Positions 64 to 48,172 of a stretch of 64,000 bases of DNA are shown here, piece by piece. This stretch comes from Curtobacterium sp. MCLR17_007 (lineage in GTDB: Bacteria; Actinomycetota; Actinomycetes; Actinomycetales; Microbacteriaceae): assembly GCF_003234655.2 (NCBI RefSeq), contig NZ_CP126271.1, positions 1,674,001 to 1,738,000 of the forward strand. Direction: 5' to 3'. The notes below the pieces were generated by a model. The model ran no database searches. It saw only the letters and a list, made by a program, of their open reading frames with translations, and was not told the DNA's origin. Positions within the stretch are counted from its first letter, which is position 1, and every line of letters begins with the position of its first letter. Made by a program: the position numbers and the translations under genes.

Positions 64-354
64 TCAGGAGCGGACCAGGCGGGCGATCGCCTCGGAGGCT
101 TCGCGGACTTTCGCGGCCGGGTCACCACCGTCGGCCATCGCGTCGGCGACGCAGTGGCTGAGGTGGTCCTCGACGAGTCCGAGCGCGACCGACTGCAGGG
201 CCTTCGTCATCGCTGACACCTGCGTCAGGATGTCGATGCAGTACTGCTCGTCCTCGACCATGCGCTGGAGGCCGCGGGCCTGCCCCTCGATGCGCCGCAG
301 ACGCTTCAGGTAGGCGTCCTTCGACGAGATGTAGCCGTGCTCGTGCTCGGTCAT
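64..354 (-). CDS. csoR: CsoR-type copper-sensing repressor
   Basis: A 96-residue all-helical metal-sensitive repressor of the CsoR/RcnR/FrmR family. The three ligands of the copper-sensing branch are present as Cys39 (in YCIDIL), His64 and Cys68 (in DHLSHC), matching Cys36, His61 and Cys65 of M. tuberculosis CsoR. In the family the apo-tetramer binds DNA and Cu(I) releases it, derepressing copper export genes. A short inverted repeat lies 20 bases upstream of the start, which suggests autoregulation. The start ATG follows a GGGAGG ribosome-binding site. No copper ATPase or chaperone gene is visible, so the regulated genes probably lie elsewhere or the gene only controls itself here. Confidence 0.9.
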   Translation of the reverse strand: MTEHEHGYISSKDAYLKRLRRIEGQARGLQRMVEDEQYCIDILTQVSAMTKALQSVALGLVEDHLSHCVADAMADGGDPAAKVREASEAIARLVRS

Positions 355-373
355 GGGGCCTCCCGGGGAGTGG

Positions 374-388
374 TACCCCTCCAGGGTA
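374..388. promoter_or_regulatory. Probable CsoR operator
   Basis: Inverted repeat TACCC-N5-GGGTA between the csoR start and the divergent antitoxin gene. CsoR operators are GC-rich inverted repeats of this TACCC/GGGTA type, and the site sits where an autoregulatory operator should be. No binding evidence beyond the sequence. Confidence 0.55.
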
Positions 389-468
389 TGCCATTGCTCC
401 GGTCTGGTTGACACGGTTGACGGTGCGAGCGTACGGTTGGTTGACATGGTTGCAGGAAGGCGGACCTC

Positions 469-1002
469 ATGCCCACAGCACGACGCGCGGTCACCGGGAC
501 GGCCGAGGCGGCACTGCTCGCCGCGATCCAGGACCGGCTGCGCGGGGGTCGCTACGACGACGCGCTCGCTGCCGTCGAGGACGTCGACGCCCTGGCGGAC
601 CGCATGGTCGCCGCGCTGCCGGCGGTCAAGCACGAGGCTGACGAGTTGATCGGCCCGTTCTACGACGCGGCTTCGCTGGCGAACTGGCGCGGGGTCACGC
701 GACAGGCCATCAGCAAGGCGAGCACCAAAGGCGACCTGCTCGGACTGAAGATCGGCGACGGCAGCCGGATCTTCCCGTCGTTCCAGTTCGGCCCGTCCGG
801 TGCCCCGCTGCCTCGGTTGCGCGAGGTCCTCGACCTGCTCGACCCCGACCGGATCGACCCATGGGGCAGCGCACTGTGGTTGAACACCGTCGCCGACGAG
901 TTCGGCGGCACGACGGCTGCCCAGGCACTCCGTGCCGGGCGGCACGAGCCCGTCCTGCGGGCCGCCCGCCGTGCTGCCCGCGCCTGGCTGGCCGACGCGT
1001 GA
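469..1002 (+). CDS. MbcA/Xre-type antitoxin of a RES toxin-antitoxin pair
   Basis: A 177-residue protein. The middle (about residues 65-105) carries a helix-turn-helix-like stretch with VTRQAISKAS, and the C-terminal 60 residues end in a WLNTVADEFGG element resembling the toxin-binding domain (DUF2384) of MbcA/ParS antitoxins, where a G-G turn sits between two helices. The stop codon overlaps the start of the RES-domain gene (GTGA), the usual arrangement for translationally coupled antitoxin-toxin pairs. By analogy with MbcTA it should bind and neutralise the toxin and repress its own promoter. The start ATG has AGGAAGG upstream. The antitoxin assignment comes mainly from its partner and its C-terminal pattern. 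Confidence 0.7.
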   Translation: MPTARRAVTGTAEAALLAAIQDRLRGGRYDDALAAVEDVDALADRMVAALPAVKHEADELIGPFYDAASLANWRGVTRQAISKASTKGDLLGLKIGDGSRIFPSFQFGPSGAPLPRLREVLDLLDPDRIDPWGSALWLNTVADEFGGTTAAQALRAGRHEPVLRAARRAARAWLADA

Positions 1003-1667
1003 CGGAACGGCGGACCGAGGTCGCACAGCGCGGGCCGGCTCCCGAGGCGGAGCTCGCCGGGTTCCCCACCGTCGAGTCGCGGGGCACGACGTTCTACCGT
1101 GCCAAGCGCCACGACCGCGGTGCGTGGTGGTTCGCGAGCACCCCGGCAGACGCCGATGGCGATGACGGTGGCCGGTTCGACCTGGCCGACCCCCGGGGCA
1201 CCTGCTACTGGGCGGACTCGGTCGAGGTCGCGGTCCGGGAACGCCTCGCCCACCACACGCTGCACACCAACACGGTCTTCGTCGGGCGTGCTCGCGAGAT
1301 GGTCGTCGTGGCGGCGCGGGCGTCGCGTGGTCGGCGGTTCGCCGACGTCACCGCACCCGGAGCGGTCCGGCACGGCGTCGGTGCCGAGCTGCAGACGATG
1401 GTCGACTACCGCGTGCCGCAGGCCTGGGCACGGGCCTTCGACGCCGCGGGGTTCGCCGGTGTCCGGTACAGCACGCGGTTCACGAGCGCCGCTGCCCCGA
1501 ACGCGTGGGCCGTGTTCGGGACGGCGGGCGTACCGCGACGACCCCGACCCGAGCGCGTCCACCGCGACGGCGTCACGGCGTGCCGCGAGTCCGGCATCCG
1601 CGTGCTCGACGACGGCTCGACCGCCGGCCCCGAGCGCTTCACGATCGTGTCGCCGCCCCGCGCCTGA
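999..1667 (+). CDS. RES-domain toxin (NAD+-consuming, MbcT-like)
   Basis: A 222-residue RES-family protein starting at GTG 999, which overlaps the antitoxin stop. RES toxins such as MbcT degrade NAD+ by phosphorolysis or hydrolysis. Visible family features are an Arg in FYRAK, the GRFDL element, the GTCYWADSVEVAVRERL block carrying the conserved Glu, and a later Arg/Ser segment around GVRYSTR. Length fits the family. The domain is intact with no frameshift. Production is presumably limited by coupling to the antitoxin. Confidence 0.82.
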   Translation: MTERRTEVAQRGPAPEAELAGFPTVESRGTTFYRAKRHDRGAWWFASTPADADGDDGGRFDLADPRGTCYWADSVEVAVRERLAHHTLHTNTVFVGRAREMVVVAARASRGRRFADVTAPGAVRHGVGAELQTMVDYRVPQAWARAFDAAGFAGVRYSTRFTSAAAPNAWAVFGTAGVPRRPRPERVHRDGVTACRESGIRVLDDGSTAGPERFTIVSPPRA

Positions 1668-1686
1668 CCTCCCGTCCGGCAGCGCC

Positions 1687-2697
1687 GTGTCGGTGGCTGC
1701 TCCTACCGTTCCCGACGTGGTCGAGCCAGTCGATGCGTGGTGGCGCCGCCGGCAGTTCTCGCGCGGCGTGCCGATGCCGTACGCCGTCGGCCAGTTCCGT
1801 GACGCGTGGGCGTCCTTCCCCGTGCTCATCCGGCAGTACCACCCGGAGTGGAACGCCGGCATCGTCCTGACCCAGATCCCGCCTGCGGCCGAGGTGCTGC
1901 TGACGTGGGAGTGTGACGTCGGCCACGTCTTCGTCGCCACCCCAGCCGAGCAACGCGGCCGACCCGGGCGTGAGCGACGGCGCTCGGTCTGGTGCCCGGA
2001 GTGCACGGTCATGGCCAAGCCGCAGCGCTGGCCCGTCCTGCCCGCGGACTGGCCAGCGGTCGTCCCCGCGCCGCAGCGCGCCGTCCGGGTGACGGGCCGT
2101 CAGACCCTGCCTGCGGCCGGGCGGGTGCGCGCACCCGGTGCGGACGCCGTGCCGACGGGAGCGGTCGCGTCCACACGAGCGGCTCGCCCCGGTGCACGCC
2201 GGGGCACGGTCCGGCGTCCGGCGGCAGAGCGCGATTTCTGCCGCAAGACCCCGCGCCTGCCGTCGGGCGACGCCTTCGTCAGTGTCTGCGCACCGGCGAC
2301 CGCCTCGGCGGTCGAGGCCGAACTCCGCCAGGCCCTGGTGGACCGCTTCGACTTCACGTTCGACCGCAACGCCGTCCGCCTCGACCGGCCCTTCCACGAC
2401 CACGTCGAGGCCTGGCCGGACGTCATCCTGCCCGAGCTGCGCGTCGCGATCGAGTACGACTCGACGGGGCGCCACGGGCTCGAACACGTCGGACCGCGCG
2501 AGGACTCCGACCGGCGCAAGGACCGCGCACTGCGCAGCGTCGGGTGGGAGGTCATCCGGATCCGCACCGGACGGCTGCCGGCGCTCGGTCCGCACGACCT
2601 GCAGGTGTCGGGCGTGTCCGGTCGGACGATCGAGCGCCTGGTCGACACCCTGCGCGACGTCCGCGGTGCGCTCTTCGTCGACGCCTACGCGCGCTGA
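1687..2697 (+). CDS. Zinc-ribbon plus PD-(D/E)XK nuclease-like protein
   Basis: About 336 residues from GTG 1687; the start is uncertain because no clear ribosome-binding site is present (ATG at codon 29, MPYAVG, is an alternative). Residues 70-110 hold a treble-clef zinc ribbon (WECDVGH...WCPEC). The middle is Arg/Ala/Pro-rich. The C-terminal 110 residues contain PELRVAIEYD...RRKDRALRSVGWEVIRIR, the signature of the Vsr/DUF559 branch of the PD-(D/E)XK fold, with the acidic metal ligands in E-x-D and a Lys in RKD. No substrate can be named. It follows the toxin-antitoxin pair in the same direction, so it could belong to a small defence or stress patch. Confidence 0.65.
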   Translation: MSVAAPTVPDVVEPVDAWWRRRQFSRGVPMPYAVGQFRDAWASFPVLIRQYHPEWNAGIVLTQIPPAAEVLLTWECDVGHVFVATPAEQRGRPGRERRRSVWCPECTVMAKPQRWPVLPADWPAVVPAPQRAVRVTGRQTLPAAGRVRAPGADAVPTGAVASTRAARPGARRGTVRRPAAERDFCRKTPRLPSGDAFVSVCAPATASAVEAELRQALVDRFDFTFDRNAVRLDRPFHDHVEAWPDVILPELRVAIEYDSTGRHGLEHVGPREDSDRRKDRALRSVGWEVIRIRTGRLPALGPHDLQVSGVSGRTIERLVDTLRDVRGALFVDAYAR

Positions 2698-2702
2698 GCT
2701 CC

Positions 2703-2878
2703 GCACGGTGCGAGGTCGGGGTGTCGGCACGGTGCGAAGTTGGGGTGTCGGCACGGTGCGAAGTTGCGTGTGCGTGCGACCTTGACCGCCCCGTGCGACT
2801 TTGTTGCGCTGCACGGGGCGATCAACCCCGCACCGTTCCAACCCCGCACCGTTCCAACCCCGCACGGTGCCAACCCCC
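2703..2878. repeat. Intergenic repeat cluster (24-bp x3 and 16-bp x3)
   Basis: Between two convergent genes. On the left are three copies of a 24-bp unit beginning GCACGGTGCGAAGTTGGGG at 2703, 2727 and 2751 (the last diverges at its end). On the right are three copies of a 16-bp unit CCAACCCCGCACCGTT at 2822, 2838 and 2854. The two units are roughly reverse complements, so the cluster can fold across the central hairpin. A related element lies at 32901-32996. Confidence 0.85.
2787..2820. terminator. Bidirectional hairpin between convergent genes
   Basis: A perfect 10-bp stem, CGCCCCGTGC with GCACGGGGCG, around a 14-base loop, midway between the convergent nuclease-like and GIY-YIG genes. No T-tract follows, so any termination would depend on the stem alone. 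Confidence 0.5.
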
Positions 2879-2884
2879 GGCGTG

Positions 2885-3445
2885 TCAGCCGCGCAACGCC
2901 AGCGCCTCGCTGCACCACCGCGCGTGCAGCGCCCAGGGGTCCTCGACGCCCGCGCCCACCACGCGCACGTGGTCGAGCAGCTCCGCGGTGGCACGGAACC
3001 ACTCGGTGCCGGGCCAGCGCGCGCCGGCGAACTGCTCGTGCCGGCGTCGCTCGAGCGTCCGGTCCCCGCGCTCGAACGCCAGCAGGTCCTGGTGAGGGAT
3101 CCGGGCGAGTCGCTGGCGGGGGTTCGTCGTCGTGCCGATCTTCACCCGGTCGCCGACCGCGTCGCGCTGGCGCAGGTAGTAGACGACGTCGACCCGCGGA
3201 GGAGCGAGGTCGCTGTCCGGCACGTCGCCGTACGGCCACTCGCACACGGCGCAGACCGTTCCCGATGCGAACCGCACGCCCAGCCGGCATCCGCAGACGA
3301 GACACGGGCCGGGCAGCGCGTCCTCGACGCCGCGCGTGCCGTCGGCGAAGTCGCGGACCAGGACCACGTGCGCCTCGCACAGCGGGACCGGCGAGCCGGC
3401 GGCGGGCGCACCTGCGCAGCCGGGCACGCAGCAGGAGTCGACCAT
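2885..3445 (-). CDS. GIY-YIG/T5orf172-type nuclease-like protein with zinc-binding N-terminus
   Basis: A 186-residue protein. The first 80 residues hold four cysteine pairs or singles (CCVPGC, CLVCGC, CAVC) that look like two small zinc knuckles. Residues 85-175 match the T5orf172 branch of the GIY-YIG fold: VVYYLRQR, then DRVKIGTTTNPRQRLARI, then the ERRRHEQF helix and the WF-x6-L tail. GIY-YIG domains cut or bind DNA, but the role of these stand-alone actinobacterial proteins is not established. A TAGCGT -10 element at 3453-3458 leaves 7 bases before the ATG, implying a leaderless mRNA and supporting this start. Confidence 0.75.
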   Translation of the reverse strand: MVDSCCVPGCAGAPAAGSPVPLCEAHVVLVRDFADGTRGVEDALPGPCLVCGCRLGVRFASGTVCAVCEWPYGDVPDSDLAPPRVDVVYYLRQRDAVGDRVKIGTTTNPRQRLARIPHQDLLAFERGDRTLERRRHEQFAGARWPGTEWFRATAELLDHVRVVGAGVEDPWALHARWCSEALALRG

Positions 3446-3525
3446 GCGCGGAACGCTAGCGGTCACGACCGACGTGCACCGGGCCTCCCGGCCGTCGCGG
3501 ACGCGACCGTCGGGTCGCGGACGCG

Positions 3526-4365
3526 TCAGTCGAAGACGGCCCCCACCGGTTCGCGCTTCTCCTCCTGGAAGCGGTCCTCGGCGCGGCCGAGCGCCCAGTA
3601 CGCCGACAGTGACATCTGCGCCTTCTCCACGCCCCACTCGTCCTGCAGCAGCCGACGGATCGCCTTCACGGCGGCGCGCTCACCGTGCGCGAACACCTGG
3701 ACCGGCCGGGAGGCCCGCGGCAGCTCCCGGGTCGCGGCCAGCAGGAGCGTGCCCGGCTCGGCGCCGGTGGCGTCGCGGTGCAGCCACCGCAGGTCGACTC
3801 CCGACGGGTGCGGGACGTCCTGTTCGTCGTCGGGGCCCGCGACCTCGACGAGGGCGGTGCCGGTGGCGTCGGCGTGCATCGCCTCGAGCGCGGCGGAGAT
3901 CGCGGGCAGGGCGCTGTCGTCGCCGAGCAGCAGGTGCTCGACCCCGGGGTCGGTTGTCGGCGCGTACCCGCCGCCCGGGCCGGACAGGGCGAGCAGGTCG
4001 CCGGGCTGCGCGGTGGCTGCCCACGGACCGGCGAGTCCGTCGTCGCCGTGCACGACGAAGTCGATCGCGATGGTCTGCGCCCCGTGGTCGACCGCACGCA
4101 CGGTGTAGGTGCGCCGCGCCGGACGGTCCTCCTTCGGCAGCTGCTCGCGCAACGCGTCGAGGTCGTAGGGCGGCTGCAGTCCGAGCTCGCGCCGGGCGAC
4201 GAGGAGCTTGACGTACTTGTCGGTCGTCGCGAGGCGCTCGGGGTCGGCCGCGCCGACGAACTCCGCGAACGCCGGGCCACCCAGGTGCACGCGGACCATG
4301 TGCGGCGAGACGCGTTCGGTGCGGTCGACGACGAACACGTGCTGGGTGCGGTTCTTCGGGCTCAT
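3526..4365 (-). CDS. Siderophore-interacting protein (FAD-dependent ferric-siderophore reductase)
   Basis: A 279-residue member of the SIP/ViuB family, which takes Fe(III)-siderophores in the cytoplasm and reduces the iron with NAD(P)H or ferredoxin through FAD. Seen here: the FAD motif RRTYTVR near residue 85, the IDFVVHG strand, the glycine-rich GPGGGYAP loop, and the C-terminal NAD(P)H-binding domain with LLLGDDSALPAI and a VFAHGERAAV strand. Length is normal. It is divergently transcribed from the heme oxygenase gene, and the DtxR-type iron box between them lies 51 bases from its start, so iron starvation probably induces both. Confidence 0.92.
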   Translation of the reverse strand: MSPKNRTQHVFVVDRTERVSPHMVRVHLGGPAFAEFVGAADPERLATTDKYVKLLVARRELGLQPPYDLDALREQLPKEDRPARRTYTVRAVDHGAQTIAIDFVVHGDDGLAGPWAATAQPGDLLALSGPGGGYAPTTDPGVEHLLLGDDSALPAISAALEAMHADATGTALVEVAGPDDEQDVPHPSGVDLRWLHRDATGAEPGTLLLAATRELPRASRPVQVFAHGERAAVKAIRRLLQDEWGVEKAQMSLSAYWALGRAEDRFQEEKREPVGAVFD

Positions 4366-42193: not shown

Positions 42194-43477
<1,284 letters not shown>

Positions 43478-43484
43478 GCCGCAC

Positions 43485-44744
43485 GTGCGTTTCTTCATCC
43501 CGATCCTGATCGGGCGGATCCTCCGCACCCTGGCTCGTGCCCGGGGCGGAGGGTCCGCGTACCCCGGCTTCATCGTGCTGAAGCTCGTGCCGGACTTCCT
43601 GCAGCACGTCACGAAGCAGTTCCCGAACGGTGTCGTGTTCGTCCTGGGGTCGAACGGCAAGTCGACGACGACGCACATGATCTCCGACATCGTGCGTGCA
43701 CACGGCTTGCGGGTGTTCACGAACCCGTCCGGTGCGAACCTGCCGCAGGGCATCGCGTCGGCGCTGCTGTCCGAGGTGTCGCTCGGCGGCAAGCTCAAGG
43801 CGGACATCGGCATCCTCGAGGTGGACGAGGCCTTCGCGGTCGAGCTCGCCGGCATCCTGTCGCCCTCGACGGTGACGATGCTCAACGTGCAGGTGGACCA
43901 GCTCTACCGCTTCTTCGAGACCGAGCGCGTGGCGACCATGATGCTCGACACCGCCTCGCTGTCGACGGCGAACGTCATCACCAACCACGACGACCAGTTC
44001 CTCGACGCCTACGTCGGCGTCGACGGCCAGCGCGTGCTCCGCTTCGGCGCGAGTGCCGACGTCGTCGCCGCCAGCCCGAACGGCCTGCAGAACGCCGACG
44101 ACTTCGACCGTGCCGACGCCACCGCGACGACGATCGACGCCGAGGTGACCGCGCACACGGGGGACGCCGCCACGATCGCGTTCGCCGGTGCCGACATCGC
44201 CGTGCGCCTGCCTGCACGCGGCCTGCACTACGCGGTCGACGCCGCAGCGGCCACGGCGACGGCCAGCGCCGCGCTCGGCTCGCAGTTCCAGGCGGCCGCC
44301 GTCACGCGGGCCTTCTCGACGATGAAGCCCGCCTACGGCCGCGGAGAGCGACTCCCCATCGCGGGCGAGTCCGCCGAGTTCACGATGTTCAAGAACGCCG
44401 CGAGCCTGCAGCTCAACCTCGATGCCCTGCCCGACCACCCGGAGCAGGTGCTCATGGCGATCGACGAGGGCACGCCGGACATCTCGTGGATCTACGACAT
44501 CGACTTCTCGAAGCTCGACCACGTCGACGTCGTCTCGGGCGACAAGGCCTGGCAGATCGCGATCGCCCTCGAGCACGCCGGCGTCCGCATCGGCAGGGTC
44601 GAGCCCGACGTCGAGACGGCGATCAAGCACATGCAGCAGCTCGGGTCGACGACGTCCGGCACGAAGAACTTCATCGTCAACTACGAGATCATGATGATCG
44701 CCCGCAAGGCGCTGGGCCACCCGGACCTGGAGAAGACCGCATGA
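43485..44744 (+). CDS. MurT-like Mur ligase without zinc ribbon
   Basis: A 419-residue homologue of MurT, the ATP-using half of the lipid II isoglutaminyl synthase MurT/GatD. The P-loop VLGSNGKSTTTHM has Lys59; the acidic ILEVDEAF segment and the C-terminal DUF1727 domain with SWIYDIDF (Asp338, equivalent to the catalytic Asp349 of S. aureus MurT) are kept. Canonical MurT has a four-cysteine zinc ribbon in its middle domain; this protein has no cysteine at all. GTG 43485 lies 7 bases after the sigA stop. It overlaps the GatD-like gene by four bases, so the two products likely form a complex. Confidence 0.85.
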   Translation: MRFFIPILIGRILRTLARARGGGSAYPGFIVLKLVPDFLQHVTKQFPNGVVFVLGSNGKSTTTHMISDIVRAHGLRVFTNPSGANLPQGIASALLSEVSLGGKLKADIGILEVDEAFAVELAGILSPSTVTMLNVQVDQLYRFFETERVATMMLDTASLSTANVITNHDDQFLDAYVGVDGQRVLRFGASADVVAASPNGLQNADDFDRADATATTIDAEVTAHTGDAATIAFAGADIAVRLPARGLHYAVDAAAATATASAALGSQFQAAAVTRAFSTMKPAYGRGERLPIAGESAEFTMFKNAASLQLNLDALPDHPEQVLMAIDEGTPDISWIYDIDFSKLDHVDVVSGDKAWQIAIALEHAGVRIGRVEPDVETAIKHMQQLGSTTSGTKNFIVNYEIMMIARKALGHPDLEKTA

Positions 44745-45514
44745 CGGCCGATCGCCTGACCATCCTGCACGTGTACCCGCGGCAGATGGGGGTGTCGGGG
44801 GACCGTGGCAACGTGGTCGCACTCACCCGCCGTGCGGCTGCCGCCGACCTGGCGACCCAGGTGCTCGAGTACGCCCCCGGCGATGCGCTGCCCACCGAGG
44901 CCGACGTCGTCGTGGTGGGCAACGGACCGCTCAGCGCGATGCGCTCCCTCGGGCCCGACGTGACCCGCATCGGTGGTGCGCTCCGTGAGTTCGCCGCAGC
45001 CGGTGTGCCCGTCGTGGCCGTCGGGGGTGGCTTCGACCTGGCCACGAACCAGGTCGTCCCGACGGACGGCGCGCCCGTCGAGGGGTTCGGCGTGTTCGAC
45101 GCGCGGGCCGTCCGAGGTGCCGAGCGCAGGGTGAACTACTTCGTGCTCGAGACCCGCTACCCGTTGCTCCCCGGCGCCGACAGGCGGCTGGCCGCCTTCG
45201 AGGACCACGCCACGAAGATGGAACTCGGCAGCGGCGTCACGCCGTTCGCCGACGTCGTCTCGGGCGGCGGTAACCAGGCCGGGCAGCCGGTCGAGGGCGC
45301 GATCTCGGGCTCCTCGTTCGGCACCCACGCCCAGGGGCCGCTCCTGCCGCTCAACCCGGCGCTGACCGACGCGGTGCTCGCAGCGGCGGCTGCACGGCTC
45401 GGGCGCGACTACGCACCCGACGCCGAGCGCACCGCCGACATCGACCGGTACGCGCGCGAAGCGCGGGCCACGGTCGACCGGTACGTCGACAAGGCGTTCA
45501 AGCGCATCGCCTGA
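44741..45514 (+). CDS. GatD-like amidotransferase domain lacking the catalytic Cys and His
   Basis: A 257-residue homologue of GatD, the glutaminase that feeds ammonia to MurT. The fold is intact along its length: TILHVYPRQMGVSGDRGNV at the start, GVPVVAVGGGFDLATNQV in the nucleophile-elbow region, VEGFGVFD, FEDHATK, and GTHAQGPLLPLNPAL at the end. In S. aureus the elbow reads ICGGYQ with Cys94; here it is VGGGFD with Gly95. The catalytic His189 (YLHGP) is Gln198 (HAQGP), and the protein has no cysteine. It cannot release ammonia by the known mechanism. ATG 44741 overlaps the MurT-like stop. Confidence 0.85.
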   Translation: MTADRLTILHVYPRQMGVSGDRGNVVALTRRAAAADLATQVLEYAPGDALPTEADVVVVGNGPLSAMRSLGPDVTRIGGALREFAAAGVPVVAVGGGFDLATNQVVPTDGAPVEGFGVFDARAVRGAERRVNYFVLETRYPLLPGADRRLAAFEDHATKMELGSGVTPFADVVSGGGNQAGQPVEGAISGSSFGTHAQGPLLPLNPALTDAVLAAAAARLGRDYAPDAERTADIDRYAREARATVDRYVDKAFKRIA

Positions 45515-45542: not shown

Positions 45543-45588
45543 ACAGACAGGAGGCGCGGTGCCAGCTGGCACCGCGCCTCCTGTCTGT
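45543..45588. terminator. 46-bp perfect palindrome, terminator-like
   Basis: ACAGACAGGAGGCGCGGTGC then CAG and the exact reverse complement, centred on AGCT. Between the convergent GatD-like and DUF7455 genes. One of the GGAGGC-GC palindrome family. Confidence 0.75.
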
Positions 45589-45621
45589 GTGTCGGATCGC
45601 GATCACTGTGTCGGGTCGCGA

Positions 45622-45846
45622 CTACTTCGACTCGCGGAGTCGGCTGCTCTCGTCGTGCCACTCGATGGCGGTCGCCGCGAGCTTGTCCTTGAACTCGGCG
45701 CCGTGGTGGGCGCAGAAGAACAGTTCGCCGCTGGCCATGGTGGCGCGGATGTATGCCTGCGCTCCGCAGCTGTCGCAACGGTCGGCAGCCGTGAGCTGGT
45801 TGTTGCCGAGTTCGTCGATGGAGAGGTCCTGCACGGTCTGGGTCAT
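45622..45846 (-). CDS. DUF7455 zinc-binding small protein
   Basis: A 74-residue protein. A CDSCGAQAYIRATMASGELF segment followed by FCAHHGAEFKDKL gives two C-x-x-C/C-x-H-H ligand pairs for one zinc. The family sits next to sigA, parE or gyrB-like genes in most actinobacteria; its role is unknown. GAGGAG precedes ATG 45846. An extra upstream ATG would extend the protein but is not supported by the family. Confidence 0.88.
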   Translation of the reverse strand: MTQTVQDLSIDELGNNQLTAADRCDSCGAQAYIRATMASGELFFCAHHGAEFKDKLAATAIEWHDESSRLRESK

Positions 45847-46045
45847 TGCTGTGCTCCTCACGGATCGCAGGGGTGCGGGTGACAACTCGCACTGCTGCGG
45901 GTTGGTTGACCCATTCCAACACGTGCAGCCTGAATGCCGCGCATTGTGGCGGGCCATTTCGCTGAGCGCGGATCGATCGTCCCCAGAGCGGGTGTCAGGC
46001 GAGTGTCAGCACGGGTCTGTCCCCGCCGCTCGGTACGCTCGGGAG

Positions 46046-48172
46046 GTGAGCTCCGACTACTCCGCACGTCATCTCTCCGTCCTCGAAGGACTCGAGGCCG
46101 TTCGGAAGCGTCCCGGCATGTACATCGGGTCGACCGACTCCCGGGGCCTGATGCACTGCCTGTGGGAGATCATCGACAACTCCGTCGACGAAGCGCTGGC
46201 CGGGCACGGTGACGAGATCGGGGTGCGGCTCTTCCGCGACGGCTCCGTCCAGGTCACCGACACCGCGCGCGGCATCCCGGTCGACGTCGAGCCCAAGACG
46301 GGTCTGACGGGCGTCGAGGTCGTCTTCACGAAACTGCACGCCGGCGGCAAGTTCGGCTCGGGGTCCTACGCGGCGTCGGGCGGGCTGCACGGCGTGGGCG
46401 CTTCGGTCGTGAACGCGCTGTCGGAGCGCCTCGACGTCGAGGTCGACCGTGGCGGCAAGACCTACGCCATGTCGTTCCACCGCGGCGAGCCGGGCATCTT
46501 CGACGACGCCGCCGGCATCGGCCCGGACGCCCCGTTCGCGCCGTTCACCTCGGGCAGCGAACTGCGTGTCGTCGGCAAGGTCAAGCGCGGCGTGACCGGG
46601 TCGCGGATCCGCTACTGGGCGGACCGGCAGATCTTCACGAAGGACGCCGCCTTCAGCATGGACGACCTGGTGAACCGCGCGCGTCAGACGGCGTTCCTGG
46701 TGCCCGGCCTCGGCCTGACCATCACGGACGAGCGTCCCGCGGCCATCCAGGCTGCGGCCGCGCGCGCCGAGGCCACGGGCACCGACGCCGTCGCCGGCCC
46801 GGTCGTCGAGCGCTTCCGGTACGAGGGCGGCATCGGCGAGTTCGTCGAGCACCTCGCCCCGGACACCGCGATCACCGACGTCTGGCGCGTGCAGGGCACC
46901 GGCACCTTCACCGAGACCGTCCCGATGCTCGACGACAAGGGGCACATGGTGTCCACCGACGTCGAGCGCTCGTGCGAGGTCGACCTGGCGCTCCGGTGGG
47001 GCGGCGGCTACGAGACCGTCTTCCGCAGCTTCGTGAACATCATCGCGACCCCGAAGGGCGGCACCCACCAGGCCGGGTTCGAGAGCGGCCTGATGAAGGC
47101 CGTCCGCACCCAGGTCGAGGCCAACGCCCGCAAGCTCAAGGTGGGCCAGGACAAGCTCGACAAGGACGACGTCCTGGCCGGCATGACCGCCGTGCTGACC
47201 GTCCGGCTGCCGGAGCCGCAGTTCGAGGGCCAGACCAAAGAGGTCCTCGGCACCCCGGCGGTCCGCAAGATCGTCGACCAGGTCGTGTCGAAGCGCCTCA
47301 CCGAGATCCTCACCTCGACGCAGCGCACCGAGAAGGCCCAGGCGGCGATCCTGCTCGAGAAGGTCGTCTCCGAGATGAAGTCCCGCATCTCGGCGCGTGC
47401 CCACAAGGAGACCCAGCGACGCAAGAACGCGCTCGAGAACTCCTCGTTGCCGACGAAGCTCGCCGACTGCCGGTCGAACGACGTCGAGGGTACAGAGCTC
47501 TTCATCGTCGAGGGTGACTCCGCGCTCGGCACCGCCAAGCTCGCGCGCAACAGCGAGTACCAGGCGCTGCTGCCCATCCGCGGCAAGATCCTCAACGTGC
47601 AGAAGGCGTCGGTGTCGGACATGCTCGGCAACGCCGAGTGCGCGTCGATCATCCAGGTCATCGGCGCGGGCTCGGGTCGGACGTTCGAGCTCGACCAGGC
47701 CCGGTACGGCAAGGTCATCATCATGTCGGACGCCGACGTCGACGGTGCCCACATCCGCACGCTGCTGCTGACCCTGTTCTTCCGGTACATGCGACCGATG
47801 ATCGAGCAGGGGCGCGTGTTCGCCGCGGTCCCGCCGCTGCACCGGGTCGTCGTGGTGAACCGGGGCAAGCCGAACGACACGCTGTACACGTACTCCGAAC
47901 AGGAACTCCAGACGCTGCTCAAGAAGCTCGTGAAGTCGGGCAAGAAGTACCAGGAGCCGATCCAGCGGTACAAGGGCCTCGGCGAGATGGACGCGGACCA
48001 GCTGGCGGAGACCACGATGGACCGCACGCACCGCACGCTGCGCCGGGTCAACGTCAGCGATGCCGAGGGTGCCGCGAAGGTCTTCGAGCTGCTCATGGGC
48101 AACGACGTCGCGCCGCGCAAGGAGTTCATCCTGGCCGGCGAGGGCCTGGACCGCGACCGCATCGACGTCTGA
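46046..48172 (+). CDS. parE: DNA topoisomerase IV subunit B
   Basis: A 708-residue type IIA topoisomerase ATPase subunit. The GHKL ATPase motifs EIIDNSVDEALAG, TDTARGIPVD and ASGGLHGVGASVVNAL lie in the first 120 residues; the TOPRIM domain shows FIVEGDSALG (Glu) and IMSDADVDGAHI (Asp-x-Asp), followed by YKGLGEMDADQL. It works with ParC, encoded convergently, to decatenate replicated chromosomes. It could be called GyrB2; the pairing with a second GyrA-like gene supports topoisomerase IV. TACGCT at 46034-46039 lies 6 bases before GTG 46046 (leaderless, with GGGAGG between). Confidence 0.93.
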   Translation: MSSDYSARHLSVLEGLEAVRKRPGMYIGSTDSRGLMHCLWEIIDNSVDEALAGHGDEIGVRLFRDGSVQVTDTARGIPVDVEPKTGLTGVEVVFTKLHAGGKFGSGSYAASGGLHGVGASVVNALSERLDVEVDRGGKTYAMSFHRGEPGIFDDAAGIGPDAPFAPFTSGSELRVVGKVKRGVTGSRIRYWADRQIFTKDAAFSMDDLVNRARQTAFLVPGLGLTITDERPAAIQAAAARAEATGTDAVAGPVVERFRYEGGIGEFVEHLAPDTAITDVWRVQGTGTFTETVPMLDDKGHMVSTDVERSCEVDLALRWGGGYETVFRSFVNIIATPKGGTHQAGFESGLMKAVRTQVEANARKLKVGQDKLDKDDVLAGMTAVLTVRLPEPQFEGQTKEVLGTPAVRKIVDQVVSKRLTEILTSTQRTEKAQAAILLEKVVSEMKSRISARAHKETQRRKNALENSSLPTKLADCRSNDVEGTELFIVEGDSALGTAKLARNSEYQALLPIRGKILNVQKASVSDMLGNAECASIIQVIGAGSGRTFELDQARYGKVIIMSDADVDGAHIRTLLLTLFFRYMRPMIEQGRVFAAVPPLHRVVVVNRGKPNDTLYTYSEQELQTLLKKLVKSGKKYQEPIQRYKGLGEMDADQLAETTMDRTHRTLRRVNVSDAEGAAKVFELLMGNDVAPRKEFILAGEGLDRDRIDV

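Follow-up and report, generated by a model that had tools for sequence, protein, structure and literature searches.

The closest described system is the MurT/GatD lipid II isoglutaminyl synthase of Staphylococcus aureus, Streptococcus pneumoniae and mycobacteria, with which the gene pair studied here shares the gene order, the Pfam domains and the ATP and acceptor residues of MurT. The pair differs from it in lacking the GatD Cys, the catalytic His and the gate Arg of MurT, in a shorter DNAAD/YADGRD loop of MurT and in having no zinc ribbon, the last being true of canonical pairs of the order as well. The FemABX/MurM branch ligases (FemABX being aminoacyl-tRNA dependent and acting on residue 3 in the A-type wall) are alike in the role proposed below, adding an interpeptide-bridge amino acid, with a different Pfam family and a largely complementary distribution. 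MurC to MurF and the archaeal pMurC, pMurD and pMurE, which add amino acids by acyl-phosphate chemistry, gave low-scoring matches to the MurT found here. Unlike these ligases, MurT has no UDP-binding N-terminal domain, according to the accessible part of the S. aureus structure paper (PMC6113224), and pairs with GatD. The roles used below for K59, N85, D112-E113 and Arg135 come from the accessible text on S. pneumoniae MurT (PMC6085368), in which the equivalent of P-loop lysine K59 is needed and N85A is inactive. For S. aureus, the sections available state that replacing the GatD Cys by Gly or Ser (C94G, C94S) abolishes lipid II amidation in vitro (PMC6085368, PMC6113224), and that MurT D349 pairs with the GatD His and inactivates MurT when mutated (PMC6113224). 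Among the matches listed, the open-access literature named no enzyme for joining the bridge residue to D-Glu in the B-type wall, and contained no proposal of MurT with a dead GatD, or of a CofE-like protein, as a bridge ligase.

The window, that is, the whole stretch of 64,000 nt analyzed here, belongs to a Curtobacterium strain and holds a murT-like and a gatD-like gene in a slot between two ORFs that we take to be rpoD and parE (Table 1); the small reverse-strand protein of 111 aa at the downstream border is presumably DUF7455. The GTG start of murT lies 7 bases past the rpoD stop, and murT and gatD overlap by ATGA. All Pfam domains scored above their gathering thresholds (Mur_ligase_M and MurT_C in MurT, GATase_3 in GatD), so that the pair has the domain set of the isoglutaminyl synthase, a Mur ligase middle domain and MurT_C beside GATase_3. 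The NCBIfam equivalogs were not reached, the best being 94 bits for MurT versus a cutoff of 800 and 71 versus 450 for GatD. This is the only MurT in the genome (E = 4e-274, versus 3e-5 for the second-best match), and the GatD matches nearest to the window, among those listed with names, were from Curtobacterium. Both genes are real. A MurT match below 1e-140 was found in 64 of 66 Curtobacterium genomes, the exceptions being one assembly in 790 contigs (G459) and one that is 73% complete (G501). Together with the lack of the nucleophile Cys in 119 of 120 GatD homologues (among the matches listed), this indicates that the loss of the GatD catalytic residues is no chance defect.

Table 1. Features of the ligase slot and its borders in the 64,000-nt window
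Feature	Position	Strand	Basis
Principal sigma factor gene rpoD, bordering the ligase slot upstream	42194..43477	+	ORF
murT-like ligase, 419 aa, GTG start, Cys-free	43485..44744	+	ORF, Pfam
MurT Lys59, P-loop lysine	43659..43661	+	87/87 dead-class, 46/46 named
MurT Asn85, proposed acceptor-carboxylate contact	43737..43739	+	87/87, 46/46
MurT Glu112-Val-Asp114-Glu115, Mg/ATP and acceptor residues	43818..43829	+	E, D, E each 87/87, 46/46
MurT Val137, in place of S. pneumoniae gate Arg135	43893..43895	+	Alignment
MurT Arg286, hinge/ATP arginine	44340..44342	+	87/87, 46/46
MurT Asp332 (D349 in S. aureus), paired with GatD His in the former triad	44478..44480	+	87/87; 45/46 named
gatD-like protein, 257 aa, without glutaminase residues	44741..45514	+	ORF, Pfam
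GatD Gly95 at nucleophile Cys position	45023..45025	+	Alignment
GatD Gln198 at catalytic His position	45332..45334	+	Alignment
parE-like topoisomerase ORF, downstream slot border; true start further in	45587..48172	+	ORF; tree of relatives
Small protein, 111 aa, downstream slot border	45622..45957	-	ORF; relatives adjoin most slots

MurT was aligned from 116 loci spread over genera, 105 of them from the family of the window (Microbacteriaceae) and 11 from other families of the order, including an Arthrobacter-bearing one. The gate motif (Asn-x-x-Arg-Asp-Gln) split these MurTs into 87 of the dead class, the window included, and 29 canonical ones (18 from the family and 11 from outside). A second set of 46 named pairs was found by rpoD alone, from the best 80 loci of the RpoD scan described below. 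No Cys occupied the nucleophile column in any of the 86 dead-class GatDs or the 46 named ones, versus 18/18 canonical GatDs in the family and 11/11 outside it; a Cys elsewhere in the segment was present in 3 of the 86. The catalytic position still held His in 54/86. Of the 87 dead-class loci, 86 retained a GatD next to MurT and one had no GatD. A dead GatD had already been claimed by the sequence-only reading of this DNA, and the alignment agrees, with both residues replaced in the window. The gate Arg was present in 0/87 dead-class and 29/29 canonical MurTs, a comparison that is circular because the classes were split by this same motif; this circularity does not touch the Cys counts or the named set. 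In the named pairs, which were not chosen by the gate Arg, it was absent from 45 of 46 and kept only in a divergent pair (L147).

Eight MurT residues (K59, N85, E112, D114, E115, R142, R286 and D332) were each present in all 87 dead-class sequences. The first seven were also invariant in the 46 named pairs, with D332 in 45 of them, and the claim that the P-loop Lys59 is kept thus held in both sets. The loss therefore appears selective at the level of residues, those predicted to make ammonia being gone and those predicted to activate the carboxyl being retained. The catalytic Asp had been assigned to Asp338, but this residue corresponds to S. pneumoniae Asp361 in the alignment, and only 34/87 dead-class MurTs have an Asp there; it is Asp332 that aligns with S. 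aureus D349 and S. pneumoniae Asp355, and Asp338 was discarded as the key Asp on both grounds. Because Asp332 persists without a GatD triad, a second role for this residue is probable. The window MurT has no Cys at all, as had been read from the sequence. The significance given to the lost four-Cys ribbon did not hold, because CxxC was found in 0/87 dead-class, 0/18 family canonical and 0/11 outside canonical MurTs (1/46 in the named set), which makes its absence uninformative. The available text of the S. aureus structure paper likewise describes the MurT zinc finger as a feature of some bacteria only (PMC6113224). A Cys-free MurT was consequently dropped as a marker of the variant, since canonical pairs of the order with intact GatD also lack CxxC. 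It is the dead GatD, and not the Cys-free MurT, that is diagnostic, marking an rpoD-linked pair that is widespread in the family. The occurrence of the same pair in amidating A-type organisms had been named as evidence that would count against a role in B-type walls; the Cys-free feature does occur there, including in an Arthrobacter-type pair, but the dead GatD was not found in them.

The genomic position of the pair was followed with the final 100 aa of RpoD from a relative as the query, taking the best 80 loci with flanks of up to 10 kb. The slot held MurT with a dead GatD in 46 of them, a CofE-like protein in 31, neither in 3 (all labelled Leucobacter) and both in none, counts that include one locus labelled Stenotrophomonas (L176), the divergent L147 and 5 loci that end before parE. 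Among the 25 of these loci labelled Microbacterium, 21 had the CofE-like protein and 4 MurT. The alternative occupant is a 225- to 227-aa match to a ligase family of a Pfam different from that of MurT, the CofE/F420-0:gamma-glutamyl ligase family (F420_ligase, PF01996); four proteins tested scored 28.7 to 46.9 bits versus a threshold of 25, and two tested against the F420 CofE equivalog scored 25 and 31 bits versus a cutoff of 181. In the fetched flanks (ca. 1.5 kb), rpoD was present at 80/87 dead-class and 0/29 canonical loci, indicating that the dead pair mostly occupies a single rpoD-linked locus, with canonical copies located elsewhere. Curtobacterium G307 has both the rpoD-linked dead pair and a canonical copy.

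Genome-wide searches gave a similar picture. Sixteen named genomes without slot MurT (Microbacterium, Salinibacterium, Gulosibacter and others) had no MurT match better than 9e-12 anywhere, while the three Leucobacter genomes all had a strong MurT match outside the slot, the two loci read being intact canonical pairs. MurT was found in 58 of 60 Agromyces genomes, the misses being a 77% complete genome (G418) and one with the CofE-like protein instead (G139). In 32 genomes of the best 80 loci, the CofE-like protein was detected in 7/7 with a CofE slot, 0/22 with MurT (leaving out one match at 8e-4 in a MurT genome) and 0/3 Leucobacter. Within a sample of 199 genomes of the family, 143 had a MurT of any class below 1e-70, 19 had intermediate matches (1e-56 to 1e-27) and 37 had none better than 2e-16; all 27 strong CofE-like matches (below 1e-80) fell among these 37. 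Three weak matches near 1e-35 (G201, G268 and G291) and two near 1e-3 were not counted as CofE-like. In G201 and G268 the weak match accompanied an intermediate MurT. In G291, whose MurT is of the dead class, it is a distant CofE-family protein (43%, 9e-36) that we count against the reading given below. Fisher tests beside the MurT and CofE-like counts gave 4e-19 and 2e-25, values that ignore relatedness. In a tree built from ParE (74 rows, after the removal of 7 out of 81 in which ParE was short or missing), slot type required 12 changes, at least 8 of them forced by starred branches; since parE adjoins the slot, the tree does not amount to an independent species phylogeny.

Ten of the 37 genomes had neither MurT nor a strong CofE-like match. 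Three of these are incomplete (G170, G245 and G290, 66 to 87%), whereas incompleteness does not apply to the other seven (G167, G197, G199, G210, G264, G266 and G317). G199 and G266 had no MurT, strong CofE-like or FemAB match and also count against the reading below. At L232, L233 (300-2750), L230, L234 and L235, we saw no slot ligase, with transporter-like genes or ca. 800 bases between rpoD and parE. Being absent genome-wide from the 16 named genomes, the pair is not present in every B-type organism, and its proposed tracking with the B-type wall as a whole had to be abandoned in view of the MurT-less genomes and the CofE-like slots. Nor is it the general B-type branch ligase that it had been proposed to be, because the CofE-like protein takes its place in 31/80 of the best loci.

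We also examined companion genes in the interval bounded by rpoD and parE and in as much as 2.5 kb past it. Among the best 80 loci, an ATP-grasp gene (PF14397) was present in 28/31 CofE slots and 1/46 MurT slots, and alanine-racemase-like genes (PF01168/PF00842, often paired) in 18/31 and 18/46, respectively. Genome-wide, the ATP-grasp query matched 6/7 CofE genomes and 0/26 others, this strain included. The Gulosibacter slot has a class-III aminotransferase, which we liken to EctB, and that of Microcella alkaliphila an integral membrane protein, presumably a MurJ-like flippase. None of these companions (racemase-like, ATP-grasp, aminotransferase or flippase-like) was found in the window. In MurT-less relatives, the rpoD-parE intervals at L178 (10300-14329), L162 (10300-16654) and L210 (10300-15470) combine the CofE-like and ATP-grasp genes with racemase-like, class-III aminotransferase or flippase-like genes, and such an interval is possibly a wall-bridge cassette.

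The classical branch-ligase family FemAB (PF02388) was sought in 94 genome handles, a few of which may be the same genome twice; the slot itself was read in part of them. FemAB was present in 3/48 dead-class, 0/16 CofE-like and 0/4 divergent genomes, versus 13/17 with only canonical MurT (one Leucobacter MurT was unread; 3/3 named Leucobacter are included) and 5/7 with neither. This amounts to 3/68 genomes with the dead, divergent or CofE-like type and 18/24 without. These counts do not include G141, a relative within the order that has FemAB, or G207, in which the slot is empty, the MurT match is intermediate and FemAB is absent. The complementarity is thus evident but not strict, and it is clustered in few lineages.

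As for wall chemistry, D-Orn directly on D-Glu is the chemotype of the B-type genus Curtobacterium, Leucobacter is also B-type, and Microbacterium esteraromaticum, M. resistens, M. testaceum and M. schleiferi are Orn types. The first two of these species are among the MurT-positive Microbacterium names and the last two among the MurT-negative ones; with Orn types on both sides and no split, D-Orn versus L-Lys was rejected as the cause of MurT presence in that genus. Agreia, with D-Orn in its bridge, falls into the same MurT motif class as Curtobacterium, and it is suggestive that the motif classes may read out the bridge residue. Against this, a Glaciihabitans strain belongs to that class too, and its genus is apparently DAB-bearing according to a published table. 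Published descriptions, in their accessible parts, report DAB for Subtercola, L-DAB with D-Orn for Agreia and D-Orn for Frondihabitans (PMC5945732), Lys/Orn for Salinibacterium (PMC7033078), D-Orn, L-Lys or DAB for Microbacterium (PMC10757982) and, in Clavibacter, D-DAB joining D-Glu to D-Ala (PMC9603630), the last of which we count in favour of the reading given next.

Taken together, these observations lead us to lean towards MurT with dead GatD being a candidate ATP-dependent amino-acid ligase that forms the bridge on D-Glu. Such a ligase would be the simplest reading of a slot swapped repeatedly between two unrelated ligase families, of the racemase-like genes and of the FemAB complementarity. 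MurT would activate the D-Glu residue of the stem peptide by phosphorylating its alpha-carboxyl, the reaction ascribed to canonical MurT, and the conserved MurT acceptor residues point to this target. The amine of the bridge amino acid (D-ornithine in Curtobacterium) would then attack in place of ammonia, and the B-type interpeptide bridge would start with the bond so formed. GatD would stay as a structural partner of MurT and not as an ammonia source, perhaps because ammonia would compete with the amino acid. In other family members the CofE-like protein, usually beside the ATP-grasp gene, would probably carry out the same step. The pair is best read as one of at least two alternative solutions and not as "the" B-type ligase. 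The sequence-only idea that it adds an amino acid to D-Glu thus survives in kind, through the residue pattern, the ligase-swapped slot, the racemase-like and ATP-grasp neighbours and the FemAB complementarity, but not in detail. We give about even chances to the broader proposal that an exchangeable bridge-ligase cassette behind rpoD, with either MurT and its dead partner or the CofE-like protein and ATP-grasp, builds the B-type wall of the family as an alternative to tRNA-dependent FemABX, with racemases supplying the D-amino acid.

Several observations count against the bridge-ligase reading, namely, the MurT-less CofE-like genomes, the occurrence of both states in Microbacterium, Leucobacter with FemAB and a MurT elsewhere, the clustering of the FemAB complementarity, and the His retained by 54/86 dead-class GatDs. 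This His, along with the intact MurT chemistry residues, could mean that D-Glu amidation by the pair continues, fed by free ammonia or by that of another glutaminase, for instance, to cap uncross-linked stems. Amidated D-Glu does occur among the Clavibacter muropeptides in the accessible part of the report on that genus, which is outside our locus set, and could be explained by an ammonia-using MurT (PMC9603630). Set against such amidation are the complete absence of the GatD Cys in 86 dead-class and 46 named proteins and the in vitro inactivity of the C94G and C94S complexes, as far as those sources go; it would also leave the CofE-like replacement and the racemase-like neighbours unexplained, and we regard it as quite unlikely.

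It would also be conceivable that the slot amide ligases have a target other than the D-Glu alpha-carboxyl, either in a different part of the envelope or at a residue further along the bridge. Family membership is all that identifies MurT and the CofE-like protein, and ATP-grasp_ST is named for sugar transfer. Nevertheless, MurT retains Asn85 and Asp114-Glu115, which the available S. pneumoniae text (PMC6085368) links to the stem-peptide acceptor carboxyl, and the FemAB complementarity speaks for the bridge, which makes another target unlikely. Finally, the loss of both GatD catalytic residues here might suggest that both proteins are remnants in decay or pseudoenzymes with a regulatory function, a view that we find hardly credible given the eight active-site residues invariant in 87 MurT sequences and the retention of the gene in 64/66 Curtobacterium genomes. 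The preferred bridge-ligase reading offers two concrete candidate ligases for the B-type bridge and predicts that a genome has one or the other, rarely both. If correct, an amidotransferase would have become a peptide ligase by losing ammonia production, that is, a new function gained through loss.

Some additional MurT types were seen along the way. A divergent MurT/GatD-like type lies behind rpoD at L224, L225, L226, L227 and L228 (about 300-3700) and at L147 (10304-12504); five family loci of this type scored 158 to 176 bits against the MurT profile, with ATP-grasp beside three of the five. Second MurT copies away from rpoD (L075, L099, L118, L101 and L042 as a set) are of two kinds. One is divergent, with the motif NVMIDQLHRW, and occurs in Amnibacterium and G267; the other consists of canonical pairs that still have the Cys (Curtobacterium G307, G202 and G214). 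A dead-GatD pair also stands behind rpoD at L072 in a 0.9-Mb genome (G163), which we take to be Tropheryma whipplei. In a Curtobacterium flaccumfaciens record (L175, 10219-12333), MurT and GatD are in shifted frames, probably through a sequencing error, as the same coordinates belong to a 65% complete assembly (G447). The records labelled Stenotrophomonas, Neobacillus and Planococcus (L176, P0016 and P0326) carry Microbacteriaceae-like genes and are probably mislabelled or contaminated.
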